From NCBI GenBank assembly GCA_947630855.1, contig CANRJF010000012.1, forward strand, positions 1-44,268: a stretch of DNA of 44,268 bases, given 5' to 3'. The notes beneath the pieces are model-generated. The model was given only the letters and a program-made list of their open reading frames with translations. It had not been told where the DNA came from and ran no database searches. The stretch comes from an uncultured Lachnospiraceae bacterium. Lineage in GTDB: Bacteria; Bacillota; Clostridia; Lachnospirales; Lachnospiraceae. Below are positions 7,227 to 32,199 of the stretch, one piece after another. A program made the position numbers and the translations under genes. The first letter of the stretch is position 1, and each line of letters begins with the position of its first letter.

Positions 7227-7580
7227 AAAAAAGGTGTAAAATCCTGCCCCGGCAATGGGGGTATAGGGTTTACACCTATGTGTTTTTGTATTCTTTAATT
7301 GTTATTCTTTAATATAATCAATTTCAGTAAGATTAACACCTGAAGCGGTCAGTATTGCTTTTAATGATATATACCTTCTTTTCATCTTTCTGTATGTTTC
7401 TGAATCTTTTTCACAAGATATCATATAGTCTTGTATTCTATCAAACTCTTCAATTGATATTTTTATCATTTCTTTTTCTGTCATTTCTGCCACCTCCATA
7501 TAATCACCGCCTTTATATTGATATCTATATTATAAGCGGGTTTATACTGGGTGTAAAGCCTTTTATTCAATCATTAAGGA
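7227..7580. repeat. Direct repeat copy 2 (with 330-686)
   Basis: The gene, promoter and flanks are the same as at 330-686 and in the same orientation, ending at the same ATTCAATCATTAAGGA. The terminator arm differs: GGTGTAAA...TTTACACC encloses a GC-rich loop here. A third partial copy of that hairpin sequence (CTGCCCCAGCAATGAGG) lies at about 7754-7771. Confidence 0.8.
7302..7484 (-). CDS. Small helical protein, copy 2 (unknown)
   Basis: Paralogue of the 408-590 gene, ~60 aa: the start MTEKEMIKIS and the ends LTASGVNLTE and IKE are shared, and the middle is diverged. The GGAGGT site 7 nt before ATG at 7484 and the promoter TTTACA-17-TATAAT match copy 1. An alternative ATG at 7499 is in frame. 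Two divergent yet intact copies with intact signals suggest both are, or recently were, expressed. Confidence 0.7.
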   Translation of the reverse strand: MTEKEMIKISIEEFDRIQDYMISCEKDSETYRKMKRRYISLKAILTASGVNLTEIDYIKE

Positions 7581-7663
7581 TACACATTTGCCAAATGATT
7601 TGCTATTCTAATATAAATAGAGAATACCTGTTGGCAAATCATTTGGCTCACGGGTATAATTTT
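7580..7663 (+). repeat. 84-bp palindromic repeat, copy A
   Basis: It starts ATACACATTTGCCAAATG and ends GCTCACGGGTATAATTTT. Inside, GCCAAATGATTTGC and GCAAATCATTTGGC form a 14-bp perfect stem. An inverted copy lies at 30442-30520, more than 22 kb away. It begins exactly where direct repeat 2 ends. Confidence 0.75.
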
Positions 7664-9433: not shown

Positions 9434-9562
9434 TATTATAACTTTTTTATGACTGATTCGAGCAGTCTCACACACTTGCTGTTTGAGATATAGAACATGA
9501 TTTACGTGTGTAAAAATGCCATTTTCATGCATATTTGCATTATATCTGTGAAGATACAGAAA
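9434..9562 (+). repeat. Structured repeat, degenerate copy
   Basis: It contains CACTTGCTGTTTGAGA, then AGAACATGATT, then AAAAATGCC...CATGCATATTTGCA and AACAGATAG, in the order seen in the copies at 22144 and 31483. The first hairpin keeps loop ACTTGCT with one mismatch in the stem. The inner GCGAAGC hairpin is lost and the outer closing stem is decayed. It lies just past the Rpn gene. Confidence 0.65.
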
Positions 9563-9660
9563 CAGATAGTTTATTTAAAATGCCGGCAGTGTAAAAGCAC
9601 GCCCATATTCTACAAAATAATTATTTGAATCTTATTGTCTGAAACGCAATATTATAGTCA

Positions 9661-12602: not shown

Positions 12603-12709
12603 GACATATTACAGTGTTATAAAGCCGCTTCTCCGCTTACATGCATATATGGGGTGGAGAAGAGCTTTTAACGATGTAATTAAAATTACAAAAGGAAAGG
12701 TAAAAACTT

Positions 12710-14673
12710 ATGAAGAAAAAATTATTATCAATTCTGCTTGCCATAAGTGTATGTGCAAGCACAGTTCTCTGTCCGATAGCGGGGGGGGTAATGTATATGC
12801 AGTAGATAATGCTCCGAAAACAGAAGGTGGTTTTCAATATGTAGTGTCGGAGGATGGTAAATCAGCAAGGATAACAAAATATATAGGAGGAGGAGCAGAA
12901 TCTGTAACAATTCCCAGTACTTTGGAAAGCGGAAATATAAAAGTAACCGGTATAACCGCTAATGCATTTAACAATTGCAGTGTAAATAGTATAGTAATTT
13001 CAAAAGGCATAACCAGTATAGAAGATTTTGCATTTAGCTACTGTCAGCAAGTCACGAGTATAGCGATTCCAGAAAGTGTAACAAGCATAGGGGAAAGTGC
13101 ATTTGATACTTGCAGAGGATTAACAAGCATAACGATTCCAAAAAATGTAGCAAGTATAAGAGACACTACATTTAGTGATTGCAGTAATTTAAAGGAAGTA
13201 AAATTTTCAGGAAATATTACCAGCATAGAACGCTGTGCATTTGCAGGTTGCAGGAGTTTAACGAGCATAACACTTCCTGAGAGCGTCACCAGCATAGAGG
13301 GGGGAGCATTTATGGAATGCAGCAGCTTAACCAGCATCAATATTCCAAAAGGTGTCACCTGCATAGAAGGCAGTACATTTGAAGGATGCAGCAGCTTAGC
13401 GAGCATCAATATTCCAAAAGGTGTCACTTGCATAAAAGACAGTGCATTTGCAGACTGTTGGAGTTTAACAAACATAACACTTCCTGAAGGCGTCATCAGC
13501 ATAGAAAAGTGGGCATTTGATGAATGTTACAAATTAGCGAACATAACAATACCGCCTAGTGTCACAAGTATAGGATTGAAGGCCTTTGATAATACAGCCT
13601 GGTTGGATAATGAACTTGAAAAAAATGCTTTATTGATTATAAATAATATTCTTGTTGCTGTTAATGAAAAGACAACAGGTTCAATTATCATACCAAGTGG
13701 TGTAACAAGTATCATAGGATGGGCGTTTGAAGATTGCAGCAGCATAACCGGCATAACGATACCATCAAGTGTAACCAGCATAGAAGTAGGAACCTTTGGT
13801 GGTTGCAGCAGTTTAGCCAGCATAACGATACCATCAAGTGTAATAAGCATAGGAGGTCAGGCGTTTTATGAGTGCAGCGGTTTGACGAGCATAACGATAC
13901 CATCAAGTGTAACCAGCATAGAAGGGAATGCATTTCAGGGTTGTGAATCTTTAAAAGATATCTATTATTCAGGCAGTGAAGAGCAGTGGGCAGCAGTTTT
14001 TGATGATGAAGAAGAGGAAGGCTTGAGTGACAATGTAACAATCCATTATAACAGTACTGGAAACAGTTCTCAAAATAGTAATGCTGGAAATACGGACAAA
14101 ACTGATACGTCAACATCCACGGGTAATAACCAGAACAACAATAAGGCTGTAACCGCAGTGAATGTAACCTACAAGGGAAACAGCGTAAACAATAAGACAC
14201 TGGCTATTAAAACAAAATCCAAATACACTTTTAAGGCAGAAGTTTCCCCAAGCGATGCAGTGGATAAAACAGTGACCTGGGAATCTTCCAATGGGAAGAT
14301 AGCCACGGTCAGCCCCACAGGAGTGGTGAAGGGCATTAAGAAGGGAACTGCCACCATCACGGCGAAATCTTCCAATGGAAAACAGGCTGTATTTAAAGTG
14401 AAGGTACAATCTAAGGATGTGAAAGTCTCCAAGATTTCCATTCAGGCAGAAAAAAAGGCAGTGAAGAAAGGAAAGAAGCTGAAATTAAAAGCTGTGGTAT
14501 CTCCGGCAACAGCGAAAAATACTAAGGTAAGCTGGGAATCCTCCAACAAAAATGTAGCCACCGTAAATTCCAAAGGCGTGGTAAAAGGAAAGAAGAAAGG
14601 CAAAGTTACAATTACTGCCACGGCAAAAGACGGAAGCAAAAAGAAAGCAAAAGTAAAAATCAAAGTGAAATAA
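12710..14673 (+). CDS. BspA-like LRR surface protein, frameshifted at G8
   Basis: The ATG at 12710 (AAAGGAAAGG 9 nt upstream) opens a classic signal peptide, MKKKLLSILLAISVCASTVL, but that frame stops at 12827-12829. The mature protein is in the next frame from the G tract at 12781-12788; nine or six Gs would join them and give a VYA-V cleavage site. The mature part (~625 aa) has about 15 BspA/LRR_5 repeats of the type ITIPSSVTSIEGNAFQGC, a Ser/Thr/Asn linker and two Big2-like domains (TWESSNGKIATVSPTGVVKG and VSWESSNKNVATVNSKG). The Lys-rich end may bind the anionic wall. Such proteins mediate adhesion. No LPXTG or membrane anchor is seen. A frame start at 12649 avoids the shift but lacks SD and signal peptide. 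Confidence 0.8.
12781..12788 (+). other. G8 homopolymer tract at signal-peptide junction
   Basis: Eight Gs lie within the signal peptide codons, in an otherwise AT-leaning gene. G8 puts the signal peptide and mature domain out of frame; G9 or G6 restores one frame and G7 gives an immediate TAA. This is the layout of a slipped-strand phase-variable switch, or a sequencing error in a homopolymer. Confidence 0.65.
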
Positions 14674-20950: not shown

Positions 20951-22114
20951 CTAGATGGTTGTGTTTACTCCGTTGATGGCGGCGTGTTCGTTTTCCTCCA
21001 TGGGAATGACAAGGCATTTCTGCCCATCAATGAGCTGGGACTTAATCTGGGAAGCTTTTTCCGGTTTCACTCGGAGGATAACATCATAGGTTTTTAACGC
21101 TTTCTCTTCCTTTAATTTGCTGCCCATTGCGGCAGCTTTTTCATCTAAAATATGGTCCAGTTGAGGAAGCTCATCTTCAAATTCTTTGGCGTAGGACTCC
21201 TGGATTGTGGCGGCTGCCGGAGCAGGAACATGGTTTTCTTCCATAATTTCCCCGATAGTCTCCGATGTGATGACAACCGGTTCTGGGTTATCTTCTTCTT
21301 CCTGACTTTCAGCCATGCTTTTTAAGCCCTGCTGAATGTCGTAAAAAACATCCATAGAGGTTTCTTCGTCCCCGGAAAAGGCATTTTTTACAACGGTTTC
21401 AAATGCCTGTTTTTTCTCGGCGGCTGTCCGTTTGGAAGCACATCCTAAGACTTCCTCCACAAGTTCGTTGTGAGGTTCTTTGGGATTCTTGTGGTAGCAC
21501 AGCACAGAGTGGATATCCGTGCTGCGGTCGGTAAAGGCAGGAAAGATAAAACCTGTTTCCGGCATGCTTACAATCCAGTCCCGCAGCCTTGGGCCGATTC
21601 TGTTTTCGTCTGCTCTGTAACCCAGGCCGGGCTTGCTTAAAACCACCGGGCAGATGGCGCAGAGAAGGTATTCGTATACTTCCTCCGATTCATCCAGTTT
21701 ATTATTGTCCGTTGTTTTTATCATAACATCATAGGCATCATGGAATAAAAGAATCAGGTAATTTCCGGCATAAGAGTAATGTTCAATAACCAAATCATAA
21801 AAACGTTCCACTAAATCATCATTTTTTAAAACGCTCTGCCTAAGCGCCATAAGAAACTGCTGCCTGCCCCCCGGTGATTCTTCCTCCAAAGGAAATTCAA
21901 ATTCCAAAAGATTGTTGCCAAGAGTACCGGAAAGAGTTTTTTTGGCAATTTCCAGGTATTTATAAAATTCTTCGTCTTCCAGGTTTAAAAATGTTTCTCC
22001 GAATGTTACCACTTTATTGCGCTCACCGTCTACATAACAGCCGCACATGCGGGTAAAAGTGCAGTCTTCTTTTTTCATTCTGCGTTTTAGTTCTAAGATA
22101 TCTTTTCTGTTCAT
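20951..22114 (-). CDS. DUF4317 family protein
   Basis: This 387-aa protein has the DUF4317 start (MNRKDILELKRRMKKEDCTF, TRMCGCYVDGERNKV) and family segments such as GYRADENRIGPRLRDWIVSM, CYHKNPKEPHNELVEEVLGC and an acidic linker before ILRVKPEKASQIKSQLIDG. It is cytoplasmic with unknown function, and common in Clostridia. The start at 22114 has GAGGGA 7 nt upstream; the longer frame to 22207 would translate the structured repeat. The gene is preceded by a ~170-nt leader containing a full copy of that repeat, so expression may be controlled by the leader. Confidence 0.88.
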   Translation of the reverse strand: MNRKDILELKRRMKKEDCTFTRMCGCYVDGERNKVVTFGETFLNLEDEEFYKYLEIAKKTLSGTLGNNLLEFEFPLEEESPGGRQQFLMALRQSVLKNDDLVERFYDLVIEHYSYAGNYLILLFHDAYDVMIKTTDNNKLDESEEVYEYLLCAICPVVLSKPGLGYRADENRIGPRLRDWIVSMPETGFIFPAFTDRSTDIHSVLCYHKNPKEPHNELVEEVLGCASKRTAAEKKQAFETVVKNAFSGDEETSMDVFYDIQQGLKSMAESQEEEDNPEPVVITSETIGEIMEENHVPAPAAATIQESYAKEFEDELPQLDHILDEKAAAMGSKLKEEKALKTYDVILRVKPEKASQIKSQLIDGQKCLVIPMEENEHAAINGVNTTI

Positions 22115-22143
22115 ATATAATCCCTCGTTTTTCTTCCAGTTTG

Positions 22144-22275
22144 GTATCTGTTCAGTACCTTCACAGATATGTTGAAAAAATGCATGAAAATCGCTTCGCG
22201 ATGGCATTTTTGCACGCCTGAATCATGTTCTTACGCCTCAAACAGCAAGTGTTTGAGGCTGTCCTGAACAGTTAC
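22144..22275 (-). repeat. Structured repeat copy in the DUF4317 leader
   Basis: On the minus strand: outer arm GTAACTGTTCAG, hairpin GCCTCAAAC-ACTTGCT-GTTTGAGGC, linker with AGAACATGATTC, hairpin ATGCC-ATCGCGAAGCGAT-...CATGCAT, closing arm CTGAACAGATAC. It is nearly identical to 31483-31614 and has the same orientation relative to the downstream gene. The element ends 29 nt before the DUF4317 ATG. Confidence 0.85.
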
Positions 22276-22291
22276 CCAGTTTGTAACAAAT

Positions 22292-22320: not shown

Positions 22321-22409
22321 GAATTAATTTGGTTACGCATAGTTTAGGTTATTTTAGGAAAAACTGTTATAGAAATACAAAAAACTAATGTATGATAAGG
22401 AGATTTCAT

Positions 22410-23462
22410 ATGAAAAGAAAAGTATTTACATTATTTTTATCTACGGTTATTGCCATGTCGGCAATAGGATGTGGAAGGGCGAACGACAATAAGGATAATA
22501 CAGGAAGTGTGGACAATACGGAAAACCAGGGGGCAGGCACTATTGGAAGTGAATCTGTAATGGAAAGTACAGAAAACGGAACAGAGTCGGATTTCAATCA
22601 ATTGCAGCTTGGCAATGCATTGGAACTTCCGGAAGGATTTGAGGGCGCGGAGGGAGAAACGGATGCCCATGGAGAGTTGGAGCAGGTGATTGCCCAGCAC
22701 TTAAATATTGCAGAGGAAGACTATCAGAATATCAGTTATTACTACAATTATGTGGATTTGAACGGAGACAGTAAAAATGAGATTCTGGTAATGGTTATGG
22801 GAGAAAGGTTAAATCAGGATGGAGGCAACCGCCTTATCTGGCTGGATGCTTCCGGTGACAGCCTTACGGCGGATTCTATTTTACAGGAGTTTACGGGAAT
22901 CAGCGCACCTGTGTATATCAGCAACCATATGACAGAGGGTTACAGGGATTTAATTTTGTGCAACAATATAGGCATGAATAATGATATAACACAGGACAAC
23001 CTGGGAACGGGCGCTGATGACACGGGAGCCACAGACAGTAATGGAGCAGGAACCGCAGAAGGCAACAGCGCAGGAACCGCAGAAGGCAACAGCACAAAAA
23101 CCGCAGAAGGCAACAGCACAAAAACCACAGAAGACAACAGCACAAAAACCACAGAAGGCAACGGAGCAGGAACCACAGAAGGCAACAGTGCGGGAACCAC
23201 AGAAAACGGCGCAACGGGAACAGCAGCAGGTAACGAAGGCCAGACAACAGAGGGCAATGGCGCTATTGGCAATGATTCAGACAGGGGACGCAGCGGTTAT
23301 GTGCTTCTGACATGGAAAGGCGACAAGTATCAGGAAATCCAGGAAGGCACAGTTTTAGAAGATTTACAAGGATATGAAGGAAGCGCAATTATCACCAATG
23401 ATATGAGCAGGGATTTCAGAGAAGACACATATCACTTTCTTGGTGAAGCTATGAATTTGTAA
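22410..23462 (+). CDS. Lipoprotein with 8-residue tandem repeats
   Basis: This 350-aa protein has a lipoprotein signal ending SAIGC (Cys21). The mature domain has ISYYYNYVDLNGDSKNEILV, an FG-GAP/EF-like D-x-N-x-D-x-x-x-E motif seen in predicted Ca-binding surface proteins, and later YVLLTWKGDKYQEIQEG. Between these halves sits a low-complexity insert of seven TxEGNS-type 8-residue repeats. AAGGAG precedes the ATG at 22410; an earlier frame start has no SD. It is monocistronic between the DUF4317 gene (divergent) and the thi operon. Function unknown; exposed and variable in length. Confidence 0.8.
   Translation: MKRKVFTLFLSTVIAMSAIGCGRANDNKDNTGSVDNTENQGAGTIGSESVMESTENGTESDFNQLQLGNALELPEGFEGAEGETDAHGELEQVIAQHLNIAEEDYQNISYYYNYVDLNGDSKNEILVMVMGERLNQDGGNRLIWLDASGDSLTADSILQEFTGISAPVYISNHMTEGYRDLILCNNIGMNNDITQDNLGTGADDTGATDSNGAGTAEGNSAGTAEGNSTKTAEGNSTKTTEDNSTKTTEGNGAGTTEGNSAGTTENGATGTAAGNEGQTTEGNGAIGNDSDRGRSGYVLLTWKGDKYQEIQEGTVLEDLQGYEGSAIITNDMSRDFREDTYHFLGEAMNL
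23046..23210 (+). repeat. 24-bp tandem repeat, about seven units
   Basis: Units of the form GCAGGAACCGCAGAAGGCAA plus four bases encode xGTAEGNS. Some units carry ACAAAA in place of GCAGGA. In-frame units allow copy-number change without frameshift. Confidence 0.85.
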
Positions 23463-27816: not shown

Positions 27817-27865
27817 GGAGAAAATTGAAGATAGTTAATATGATAAAGTAAATGTTACCATTCAT

Positions 27866-27960
27866 GGCCTAACCGCTCACTTGCTGAGCGGTAGGCCCAG
27901 AACATGATTCAAGTGTGAGCAAGCCCCAATTTGCGAAGCAAATTCTTAAAATGGGCTTGC
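27866..27960 (+). repeat. Structured repeat, divergent copy with changed stems
   Basis: Hairpin 1 is GGCCTAACCGCTC-ACTTGCT-GAGCGGTAGGCC, the linker contains AGAACATGATTC, and hairpin 2 is GCAAGCCC...GGGCTTGC with inner AATTT-GCGAAGC-AAATT. Both loops are those of the 22144 and 31483 copies but the stem bases differ with pairing kept. It lies between the toxin locus and the araC terminator. Confidence 0.7.
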
Positions 27961-27967
27961 GAAGTTG

Positions 27968-28007
27968 CAATTCACGGTCTAACCGCTTGCGGTTAGACCG
28001 TGAATTG
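27968..28007 (-). terminator. 19-bp perfect hairpin after the AraC gene
   Basis: CAATTCACGGTCTAACCGC and its exact complement are separated by two bases. It ends 6 nt past the AraC gene stop. There is no clear T run, so it may end transcripts by structure or be part of the adjoining repeat. Confidence 0.55.
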
Positions 28008-28013
28008 TAATAT

Positions 28014-30441: not shown

Positions 30442-30520
30442 AAAATTATACCCGTGAGCGATTTGCCAACAGGTATTCTCTGTTTCCTAAAAAACAGCAA
30501 ATCATTTGGCAAATGTGTAT
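30442..30520 (-). repeat. 84-bp palindromic repeat, copy B (inverted)
   Basis: Read on the minus strand it gives ATACACATTTGCCAAATG, GCTGTTT...AGAGAATACCTGTTGG, and GCTCACGGGTATAATTTT, as in 7580-7663. The right stem arm is shortened here (the ATTTG of ATCATTTGGC is missing). It lies in the 144-bp gap between the MATE and nudC genes. Confidence 0.75.
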
Positions 30521-30564
30521 GCTCTGGAGTATAATAGGAACACAAAGAATGGGAGGAATCATAT

Positions 30565-31449: not shown

Positions 31450-31482
31450 AATGTGAGTGGTTTGAATAGAAGTAGAAAGGAT

Positions 31483-31614
31483 GTAACTGTTCAGGACAGC
31501 CTCAAACACTTGCTGTTTGAGGCGTAAGAATTTGATTCGGGCGTGCAAAAATGCCATCGCGAAGCGATTTTCATGCATTTTTGCATTGTATCTGTGAGGG
31601 TACTGAACAGATAC
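31483..31614 (+). repeat. Structured repeat copy in the signal peptidase leader
   Basis: The outer stem is GTAACTGTTCAG / CTGAACAGATAC. Hairpin 1 is GCCTCAAAC-ACTTGCT-GTTTGAGGC (31499-31523). The linker has AGAATTTGATTC. Hairpin 2 has TGCAAAAATGC / GCATTTTTGCA enclosing ATCGCGAAGCGAT. It ends 15 nt before the ATG at 31630, so its closing arm adjoins the ribosome site. Confidence 0.85.
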
Positions 31615-31629
31615 GAAAGGATTTCGGCA

Positions 31630-32199
31630 ATGACGAAGGAAAGTGCAAAGGATAGAAAAGTAAGGGAACAATCGGCGGTGAGGGAAATCTTGAGTTGGTT
31701 CATTACAATTATACTGGCAATAGCGGCGGCTTTAATCATTAAAAATTTCATTATTATCAATGCCAATATTCCCTCCGGCTCTATGGAAAATACCATAATG
31801 ACTCATGACAGGATATTTGGCTTCCGGCTGGCATATAAGGATAAAGCGCCAAAACGGGGAGATATTATCATATTTAAATACCCTGACAATGAAGAAGAGA
31901 ATTATGTAAAGCGTATTATAGGGCTTCCCGGAGAAACGATTACCATTGAAAACGCCCAGGTTTATATTAACGGCTCTCCTGTTCCCTTAGAGGAAAATTA
32001 TCTGAAAGAAGAGTGGACAGTTGCCACAGGCCCTTTTACATTTGAAATTCCCGAGGACAGTTACCTGGTTTTGGGAGATAACAGGAACAATTCTTTGGAT
32101 GCCAGGTATTGGGAAAATAAATATGTCAGCGCAGATAAGATTTTAGGGAAAGCAATTTTCCGTTATTATCCGGTGTCTACTGCAGGGTCGCTATACTGA
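31630..32199 (+). CDS. lepB: Signal peptidase I
   Basis: In this 189-aa protein one N-terminal TM helix (WFITIILAIAAALIIKNFII) is followed by the catalytic domain: box B with the nucleophile NIPSGSMENTI, box C RGDIIIFKYP, box D with the general-base Lys in YVKRIIGLPGETI, and box E GDNRNNSLDARYW. It cleaves Sec signal peptides at the outer membrane face. The start at 31630 follows AAAGG 9 nt upstream; a frame start at 31543 would read through the structured repeat. The leader repeat suggests post-transcriptional control. Confidence 0.95.
   Translation: MTKESAKDRKVREQSAVREILSWFITIILAIAAALIIKNFIIINANIPSGSMENTIMTHDRIFGFRLAYKDKAPKRGDIIIFKYPDNEEENYVKRIIGLPGETITIENAQVYINGSPVPLEENYLKEEWTVATGPFTFEIPEDSYLVLGDNRNNSLDARYWENKYVSADKILGKAIFRYYPVSTAGSLY

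Follow-up and report, generated by a model that had tools for sequence, protein, structure and literature searches.

A MITE with IS66-type ends and a three-hairpin core in Lachnospiraceae, a candidate mobile RNA leader

What is the palindromic repeat of roughly 130 bp that stands directly before a signal peptidase I gene in the genome of an uncultured Lachnospiraceae bacterium: a mobile element, a cis-regulatory RNA, or both? The window analysed here, which is the whole 44,268-nucleotide stretch of contig CANRJF010000012.1, contains this repeat at 31483-31614 on the plus strand and at 22144-22275 on the minus strand, and the pair, first recognized in a sequence-only reading, was borne out by an identity of 93% over 136 nt. 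The outer ends (GTAACTGTTCAG / CTGAACAGATAC), the loop CTTGC (given in that reading as ACTTGCT) and the GCGAAGC apex all lie where it had placed them, but the linker of the 31483 copy, claimed as AGAACATGATTC, actually reads AGAATTTGATTCGGG. Both full copies also carry exact 8-bp target duplications on either side (GAAAGGAT and CAAACTGG), which were absent from that reading. The features are as follows:

31475..31482, no strand: left target site duplication, 8 bp (GAAAGGAT), from sequence
31483..31494, plus strand: left terminal inverted repeat GTAACTGTTCAG, from sequence; IS66-type ends are similar
31499..31523, plus strand: hairpin 1, 10-bp stem with loop CTTGC, from fold and covariation
31524..31544, plus strand: linker, family consensus about GTAAGAANRTGATTCAGGNGT, from core alignments
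31545..31584, plus strand: hairpin 2, with a 10-bp outer stem, a one-sided 3' bulge, an inner stem and a C(GAA)G cap, from fold and covariation
31588..31614, plus strand: hairpin 3, GTATCTGT, loop GAGGGTACTGA, ACAGATAC, from sequence and DNA fold
31615..31622, no strand: right target site duplication, 8 bp (GAAAGGAT), from sequence
31630..32199, plus strand: signal peptidase I gene (PF10502) behind the element, which lies in sense, from a Pfam match
22144..22275, minus strand: second complete copy, its duplicated target (CAAACTGG in minus-strand reading) lying at 22136-22143 and 22276-22283, from sequence
20951..22114, minus strand: DUF4317 gene (PF14199) behind the second copy, the element again in sense, from a Pfam match
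27854..28011, plus strand: class B copy with ends GTTACCATTCATGG ... CCGTGAATTGTAAT and the same core layout, from sequence and model match
9434..9562, plus strand: decayed class A copy, hairpin 2 apex gone, from sequence, fold and model match

The RNA folds of both full copies were better than 200 of 200 dinucleotide shuffles (z -4.96 for 31483-31614 and -4.95 for 22144-22275), as were the DNA folds of the window copy on both strands. In the 31483 copy the 3' arm of hairpin 3 forms part of the right terminal repeat and its loop is Shine-Dalgarno-like; the DNA fold shows this hairpin, whereas in the RNA minimum-energy fold the ends of the element pair with each other, and because the two folds differ, hairpin 3 and end-to-end pairing would compete. 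The right duplication includes the likely Shine-Dalgarno sequence (GAAAGGA) of the gene at 31630, so that the copy appears to have inserted at the likely ribosome-binding site of the signal peptidase gene and, via the duplication, to have left GAAAGGA on each side. Two further copies had been proposed, each of which stands in part. The copy at 9434-9562 is real and decayed (model match 9465-9538, E 7.9e-9), but its GCGAAGC apex has been lost, and the fold of 9434-9570 is no better than shuffles (z -0.85). The copy proposed at 27866-27960 with different stems does share the core layout, but belongs to a second family and truly extends from 27854 to 28011; its stems differ from class A while its loops are the same, and no target duplication was seen at its flanks. 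The window also holds repeats of other kinds: a direct repeat (397-686 and 7291-7580; 290 nt, 83%), an inverted repeat (7577-7640 and 30460-30523; 64 nt, 86%), nine repeat copies at 69-nt spacing in ORF 12649-14673, which by eye encodes a leucine-rich-repeat-like protein, and 24-nt tandem repeats (23005-23258) within ORF 22392-23462, for which there was no Pfam match (E<=0.001).

The suggestion that the repeat is a mobile palindromic element was upheld by its inverted ends and 8-bp duplications, by an IS66-family transposon that shares those ends, and by copy numbers that range from 0 to at least 56 per species within the genus taken as Butyrivibrio. Judged by its sequence features it is almost certainly a MITE, a non-autonomous DNA transposon, being short (130-158 bp) and multi-copy, with 12-bp terminal inverted repeats and without a transposase gene. 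Ends were recognized in 155 of 166 distinct copies, and these were flanked by 8-bp duplications that were exact in 63 of the 155 (8/8) and one base off in 28 (7/8), compared to 0 and 2 of 155, respectively, for control flanks shifted by 25 bases; the end search scored the duplication itself and the control did not, which somewhat flatters the duplication rate. When lengths of 7 or 9 bp were also allowed, duplications at most one base off were found for 95/155 copies from 20 genomes. One 3.2-Mb genome contains the end motif GTWACTRTTCA 378 times, compared to 16 occurrences of a reversed control. Short forms of 47-51 bp that consist of the ends and hairpin 1 only are present in genome G111 (L157, L159, L162, L163), with an exact 8-bp duplication at L159 and imperfect ones at the others. 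REP/BIME elements are likewise dispersed palindromes between genes, but they are moved by RAYT, a Y1 transposase that recognizes a hairpin, and are not known to leave a target duplication, whereas the MITE has true inverted ends and 8-bp target duplications, the latter of which do not fit a REP/RAYT element.

The ends also point to the enzyme that may move the element. The IS66 family is characterized by an 8-bp duplication and GTAA-type ends, and three loci fit this hallmark with exact 8-bp duplications and ends GTAAC or GTTAC. One of them, in the genome of the window (L171:1349-3255), has ends GTAACAGTTCAGATACC, an 8-bp duplication AATAATGA and one ORF of 509 aa; the other two, L179 and L188, have ends GTTACTGTTCAC and GTTACAGTTCAC and exact duplications GCCGGAAT (L179) and GTATTAGA (L188). 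PF03050 (DDE_Tnp_IS66) was matched in L171 (4.8e-19) and L179 (1.2e-25), and the two transposases scored against the NCBIfam IS66 transposase equivalog reached 127 and 162 bits, below the cut-off of 180; as such sub-cut-off scores indicate a divergent branch, 'IS66-like' is the safe name. From the shared ends we infer that the mobilizer is very probably a single-ORF IS66-family transposase. The MITE resembles members of this family in its ends (GTWACNRTTCA) and 8-bp duplications, as seen in L171, L179 and L188, and differs from them in lacking a transposase and in having a structured core as its interior. A match to a known IS end, which the sequence-only reading had named beforehand as evidence against its proposal, was thus obtained for the outer ends, but the core was found in none of 20 loci that bear genes, or pieces of genes, for an IS66-type transposase. 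The rarity of a close transposase relative in core-bearing genomes counts against a simple picture of mobilization: such a relative was found in 12/299 genomes (five candidates scored in each), of which only the genome of the window also matches the core model, that is 1/47 core-bearing genomes. PF03050 was present in 6 of 13 core-rich genomes, and no paired ends of MITE type were found at the PF03050 loci of these genomes except at L171. Ends of class B/C type mark an apparent longer multi-copy element in the genome of the window, cut at contig ends; a search for an autonomous partner via such an end in 145 relatives gave only this same genome and one 21-base match, and the long element was not recovered. 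In G111, paired ends with a spacing of 0.9-3 kb were considered as candidates and rejected, since the two pairs with ORFs listed enclose apparent host genes and no transposase.

Within the genome of the window (3.93 Mb in 255 contigs, with a completeness of 94.95%) the pattern CACTTGCTGN{10,40}AGAACATGATTC has 18 matches against 0 for the reversed control, BLASTN of the 132-bp copy gave 42 matches (E<=0.01), and the covariance model R1 (86 positions, 24 pairs; E-values rough) gave 68 (E<=1), all of which may be undercounts because many contigs end inside elements. The copies fall into three stem families, A, B and C, with a core common to all, and a variant of family B has about 50 nt inserted in hairpin 1. 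The covariance-model search, which had been suggested as a check on the repeat, found further copies in relatives as well: R1 matches 47/299 Lachnospiraceae genomes (E<=0.01; 15 candidates scored per genome), representing 47 of the 298 genera sampled. In a class-wide draw of 391 genomes (model R2, 11 candidates scored in each, E<=0.001) five matched, all of them Lachnospiraceae, and no core was found outside this family. A pattern scan of named genomes returned at least 120 stretches, and the 80 matches listed include Fusicatenibacter, Butyrivibrio, Parablautia, Coprococcus, Hungatella and Limivivens, some others being labelled only bacterium, Clostridia, Eubacterium or Eubacteriales. In the genus taken as Butyrivibrio, 59 of 79 species match (E<=1e-4). 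Plasmids gave no match to the element, and phages gave two weak half-length matches (MT836459.1 and MT839789.1, unannotated faecal contigs; 53% of the copy, 79.5% identity).

The core consists of the left end, hairpin 1 (10 bp), a linker of about GTAAGAANRTGATTCAGGNGTG, hairpin 2 (8-10 bp) and hairpin 3, which ends in the right end. From genus to genus its stems take on new sequences, whereas the loops and the linker hardly change. Contrary to the earlier claim, however, the loops are not invariant across the family: among 149 usable cores, loop 1 reads CTTGC in 64 and TTTAC in 45, and the inner-stem apex of hairpin 2, above a one-sided 3' bulge, has the form C(GNA)G in 114 of 148 cores, with N taking every base (GAA 75, GCA 19, GGA 12, GTA 8 of 148). 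Several families have a symmetric GA/GA internal loop in hairpin 1, as seen from their sequences. Where the two ends differ, the inner arm of hairpin 3 follows the right end in 66 of 80 genome-position cases, compared to 11 in which it follows the left end and 3 in which it follows neither. Of 173 right-hand stretches, 76, which come from 26 genomes, have GAAGGNACTGA (with at most two mismatches) as the loop of this hairpin and 13 have GAACGNAGTGAAC, neither loop being recognized in the other 84. When 103 matches (96 distinct) were aligned to the model, 93.5% of cells were paired, two-sided changes occurred at 23 of 24 pairs and the covariation score was 0.642, compared to at most 0.110 with the partner slid by 1-3 columns; as the sequences were aligned by means of the structure itself, the count is biased, and sliding does not take this bias away, yet the gap is wide. 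In G111 (L160, L161, L163) the linker is rewritten (TATGTTAAACTGGGCCAGTGA) with loop 1 and apex unchanged, and in L034 the hairpin 1 loop is inverted (GCAAG) with its stem unchanged. Two further candidates were rejected. Loop 1 is complementary to GTAAG of the linker in some families, yet a pseudoknot between the two is sterically unlikely and inspection by eye showed no clear joint variation; a micro-ORF in the linker (RTG, 4 codons) is present in 37/135 cores, the rest having other lengths or none, and has no constant ribosome-binding site.

Does this core act as RNA or as DNA? The main alternative to an RNA is that the core is folded single-stranded DNA, to whose constant-loop hairpins a protein of the host or the transposon binds while the DNA is replicated or transposed, so that amplification rises. 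The stems are almost pure Watson-Crick, with G-U making up 52 of 2132 standard pairs (2.4%) in the mobile set, a share that we judge low for a structured RNA and that counts against an RNA role. Changes inside copy families show no preference between G-T-making (90) and A-C (84) mismatches, from which individual copies seem to drift, and this drift without strand preference is in line with DNA hairpins, as are the DNA folds of the window copy described above. The C(GNA)G apex with every N also obeys the rule reported for extraordinarily stable DNA mini-hairpins, that of GNA triloops (PMC4686876). Stem mismatches of G-T type outnumber those of A-C type by 53 to 15 among all distinct cores and by 26 to 12 among independent cases (p 0.03), an excess that the changes inside families do not share. 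Against the DNA explanation, the 20 IS66-type loci without the core and the short forms of 47-51 bp suggest that the core is dispensable for transposition. Between co-directional neighbours, 54 copies lie in sense and 29 in antisense (p 0.008; 161 of 166 copies classified), and a second sample of 67 copies, partly overlapping the first, gave 21 and 10 (p 0.07); this bias is modest, and the 29 antisense operon copies count against an RNA role.

What tips the balance towards RNA is a set of fixed copies in Butyrivibrio operons. A 381-bp query from the atpF-atpH junction matches 55/79 genomes, many of them at that junction, and of 30 atpF-atpH loci read by eye 5 have the full core (one of these loci with two in tandem), 3 have just hairpin 1, 2 have just hairpin 3, and 20 lack both hairpins. 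The stems of the atp hairpin 3 vary (AATTTC/GAAATT, AAAAAAC/GTTTTTT, AAAAATC/GGTTTTT), while its loop GACGAAGGA, which includes the Shine-Dalgarno sequence, is constant despite the stem changes. Sixteen further copies, chosen by DNA similarity to the 381-bp atp query, lie between other genes, and the longest ORFs on both sides are co-directional in 16/16. PurN, SufB, ribonuclease Z and ATP synthase delta were named from matches and purM, rpoA, rplQ, sufC, atpF and the tsaB-rimI-like gene by eye; the labels methyltransferase-like and CobW-like rest on weak matches. As a point against a leader role, the genes behind the fixed sites share no common pathway. At five of eight sites examined, with differing stems, the loop of hairpin 3 holds a Shine-Dalgarno sequence and the 3' arm of this hairpin runs up to the AUG or overlaps it (atpH, purN, sufB, the methyltransferase-like and the CobW-like gene), whereas at the other three (rplQ, rnz and a membrane-protein ORF) hairpin 3 does not serve the main gene as its ribosome-binding site. 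On this sequence evidence, the downstream gene in some rumen Butyrivibrio appears to have its ribosome-binding signal within the last hairpin. Outside these eight sites, L356 and L357 have the same core at an apparent orthologous site in two Butyrivibrio genomes, where an AGGAGG Shine-Dalgarno sequence overlaps the 3' arm of hairpin 3.

Pairing at orthologous positions has been kept by compensatory changes, as expected for a cis-regulatory RNA: across six orthologous sites with 26 variable pairs, 12 were compensatory, 5 one-sided (all G-U) and 9 broken. Six of the nine broken pairs belong to a site with one decaying copy, without which the counts are 8, 4 and 3 of 15, and one of the three remaining broken pairs is probably a misaligned column; the rnz site has no variable pair, and some of the pair changes could be conversion from other copies. 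Six Butyrivibrio leaders were folded as RNA (z -0.52 to -4.53); most of them form hairpins 1 and 3 in either the minimum-energy or the centroid structure, and two are not clearly better than shuffles (L307, z -0.52; L344, z -1.59). Folded DNA predicts neither the compensatory and G-U changes at fixed operon sites nor a ribosome-binding hairpin, and we consider it unlikely; since only RNA explains the fixed sites, RNA is favoured over DNA. The cis-regulatory RNA that the sequence-only reading had offered as a second possibility is therefore supported, though not proven, by the compensatory changes, the ribosome-binding hairpin 3 at 5/8 sites and the modest sense bias. The core probably works as a sense-strand RNA, and it may well act through translation initiation, for which the odds appear close to even without quite reaching it.

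The core is not tied to a single vehicle. In Butyrivibrio it occurs between GTWAC ends (L353, L370), between TATGAYATCTTRAAT and AAGAATGYATA with TA at both sides (G703, G764, G749 and others), and between a third type of inverted repeat, GGGGACGTATC... (L512, L513; G770), and its presence between different end types suggests that it forms a unit of its own. TA flanks are what IS630/mariner-type elements produce, and such elements may be the source of the TA-flanked type. The third type of repeat (GGGGACGTATCA...) at L512 and L513 resembles repeats near RAYT genes. A core copy downstream of an rRNA-tRNA cluster (L139, G207) has in its hairpin 3 the CATTCTTGGAT stem of the TA-flanked type. Another, in Butyrivibrio (L364), lies just before a sequence with GGTGGCACCGCGG, presumably a T-box-like motif. 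In pneumococcus, a BOX element lies between two T boxes (PMC3049150).

That the core sits between different end types in one genus also bears on the idea of an ordinary MITE, in which the hairpins arise merely as a side effect when palindromes form and templates switch, and the conserved loops reflect recent bursts. High identity within genomes, neutral-looking drift and the inverted hairpin 1 loop of L034 would all be expected on this account, which is nevertheless improbable given the pervasive two-sided changes and the recurrence of the loops and most of the linker in 26 genomes with different stems (the linker being rewritten in a few, among them G111, G222 and G256). Less probable still is an anti-polarity or antitermination RNA that acts on RNA polymerase or Rho and makes operon insertions non-silencing for downstream genes, as it would account for the frequent co-directional operon position, the sense bias and the lack of a terminator-type U run after the hairpins in the copies read but leaves the Shine-Dalgarno hairpin unexplained.

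The remark that no named RNA family with these loops was known agrees with our Rfam comparison, which found nothing above threshold in the window nor at the cores of 14 loci (only rRNA, tRNA and SpF66 matches outside the cores) and, for one copy at E<=10, three weak matches nearby, the best with E 0.85. The SpF66 match, to a streptococcal sRNA and just above threshold, lies near a core copy (L227:1896-2121). The open-access literature searched held no description of such an element in Lachnospiraceae, Butyrivibrio or Roseburia, nor as an IS66 MITE. The element is a MITE by every feature tested and its passenger core is, as far as searched, undescribed. The closest analogue known to us is the BOX element of Streptococcus pneumoniae, which is also a small modular repeat with ends resembling a host IS and a strong predicted RNA fold, is expressed and affects neighbouring genes (PMC3049150). 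Likened by these features, the present element differs in its host, in a core kept by two-sided stem changes across genera and in having more than one end type. RUP, ERIC, Correia and other bacterial MITEs are likewise short with inverted ends, thought to be mobilized in trans and able to alter mRNA (PMC3049150), and by these descriptions the three-hairpin core and linker, without an Rfam or literature match, set the present element apart.

Taken as a whole, our data fit best, and with fair probability, an IS66-mobilized MITE that carries a cis-acting RNA leader, the RNA role being deduced from the evidence above. The MITE, with 12-bp ends of the type GTWAC-TRTTCA, is moved in trans with 8 bp of target duplicated, most likely by a single-ORF IS66-family transposase. 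A sense copy within a transcript would then fold into hairpin 1 (10 bp, mostly with CTTGC or TTTAC), the fixed linker, hairpin 2 and hairpin 3, whose loop (often GAAGGNACTGA) would offer a Shine-Dalgarno-like sequence. The leader would most likely maintain or adjust translation of the downstream gene and thereby make insertions within operons tolerable. Butyrivibrio has kept copies of this kind at operon junctions, at several of which hairpin 3 resembles the actual ribosome-binding site. A broader proposal, which we put forward only tentatively, is that the core represents a new class of structured cis-acting RNA, a mobile ribosome-binding and regulatory module that travels as a passenger of unrelated small transposons (with IS66-type ends and 8-bp duplications, of the TA-flanked type, or with the third Butyrivibrio end type) and has repeatedly been fixed as an operon translation leader.

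Mobile repeats are usually regarded as a source of random regulatory noise, and here the fold of one module persists although its stems have changed in sequence across many genera of a family that is prominent in gut and rumen. In some Butyrivibrio, core genes, atpH and purN among them, seem to have acquired the module as their ribosome-binding site, and as orthologous filled, partial and empty sites exist, the birth of a cis-regulatory RNA from mobile DNA is directly testable in this family.
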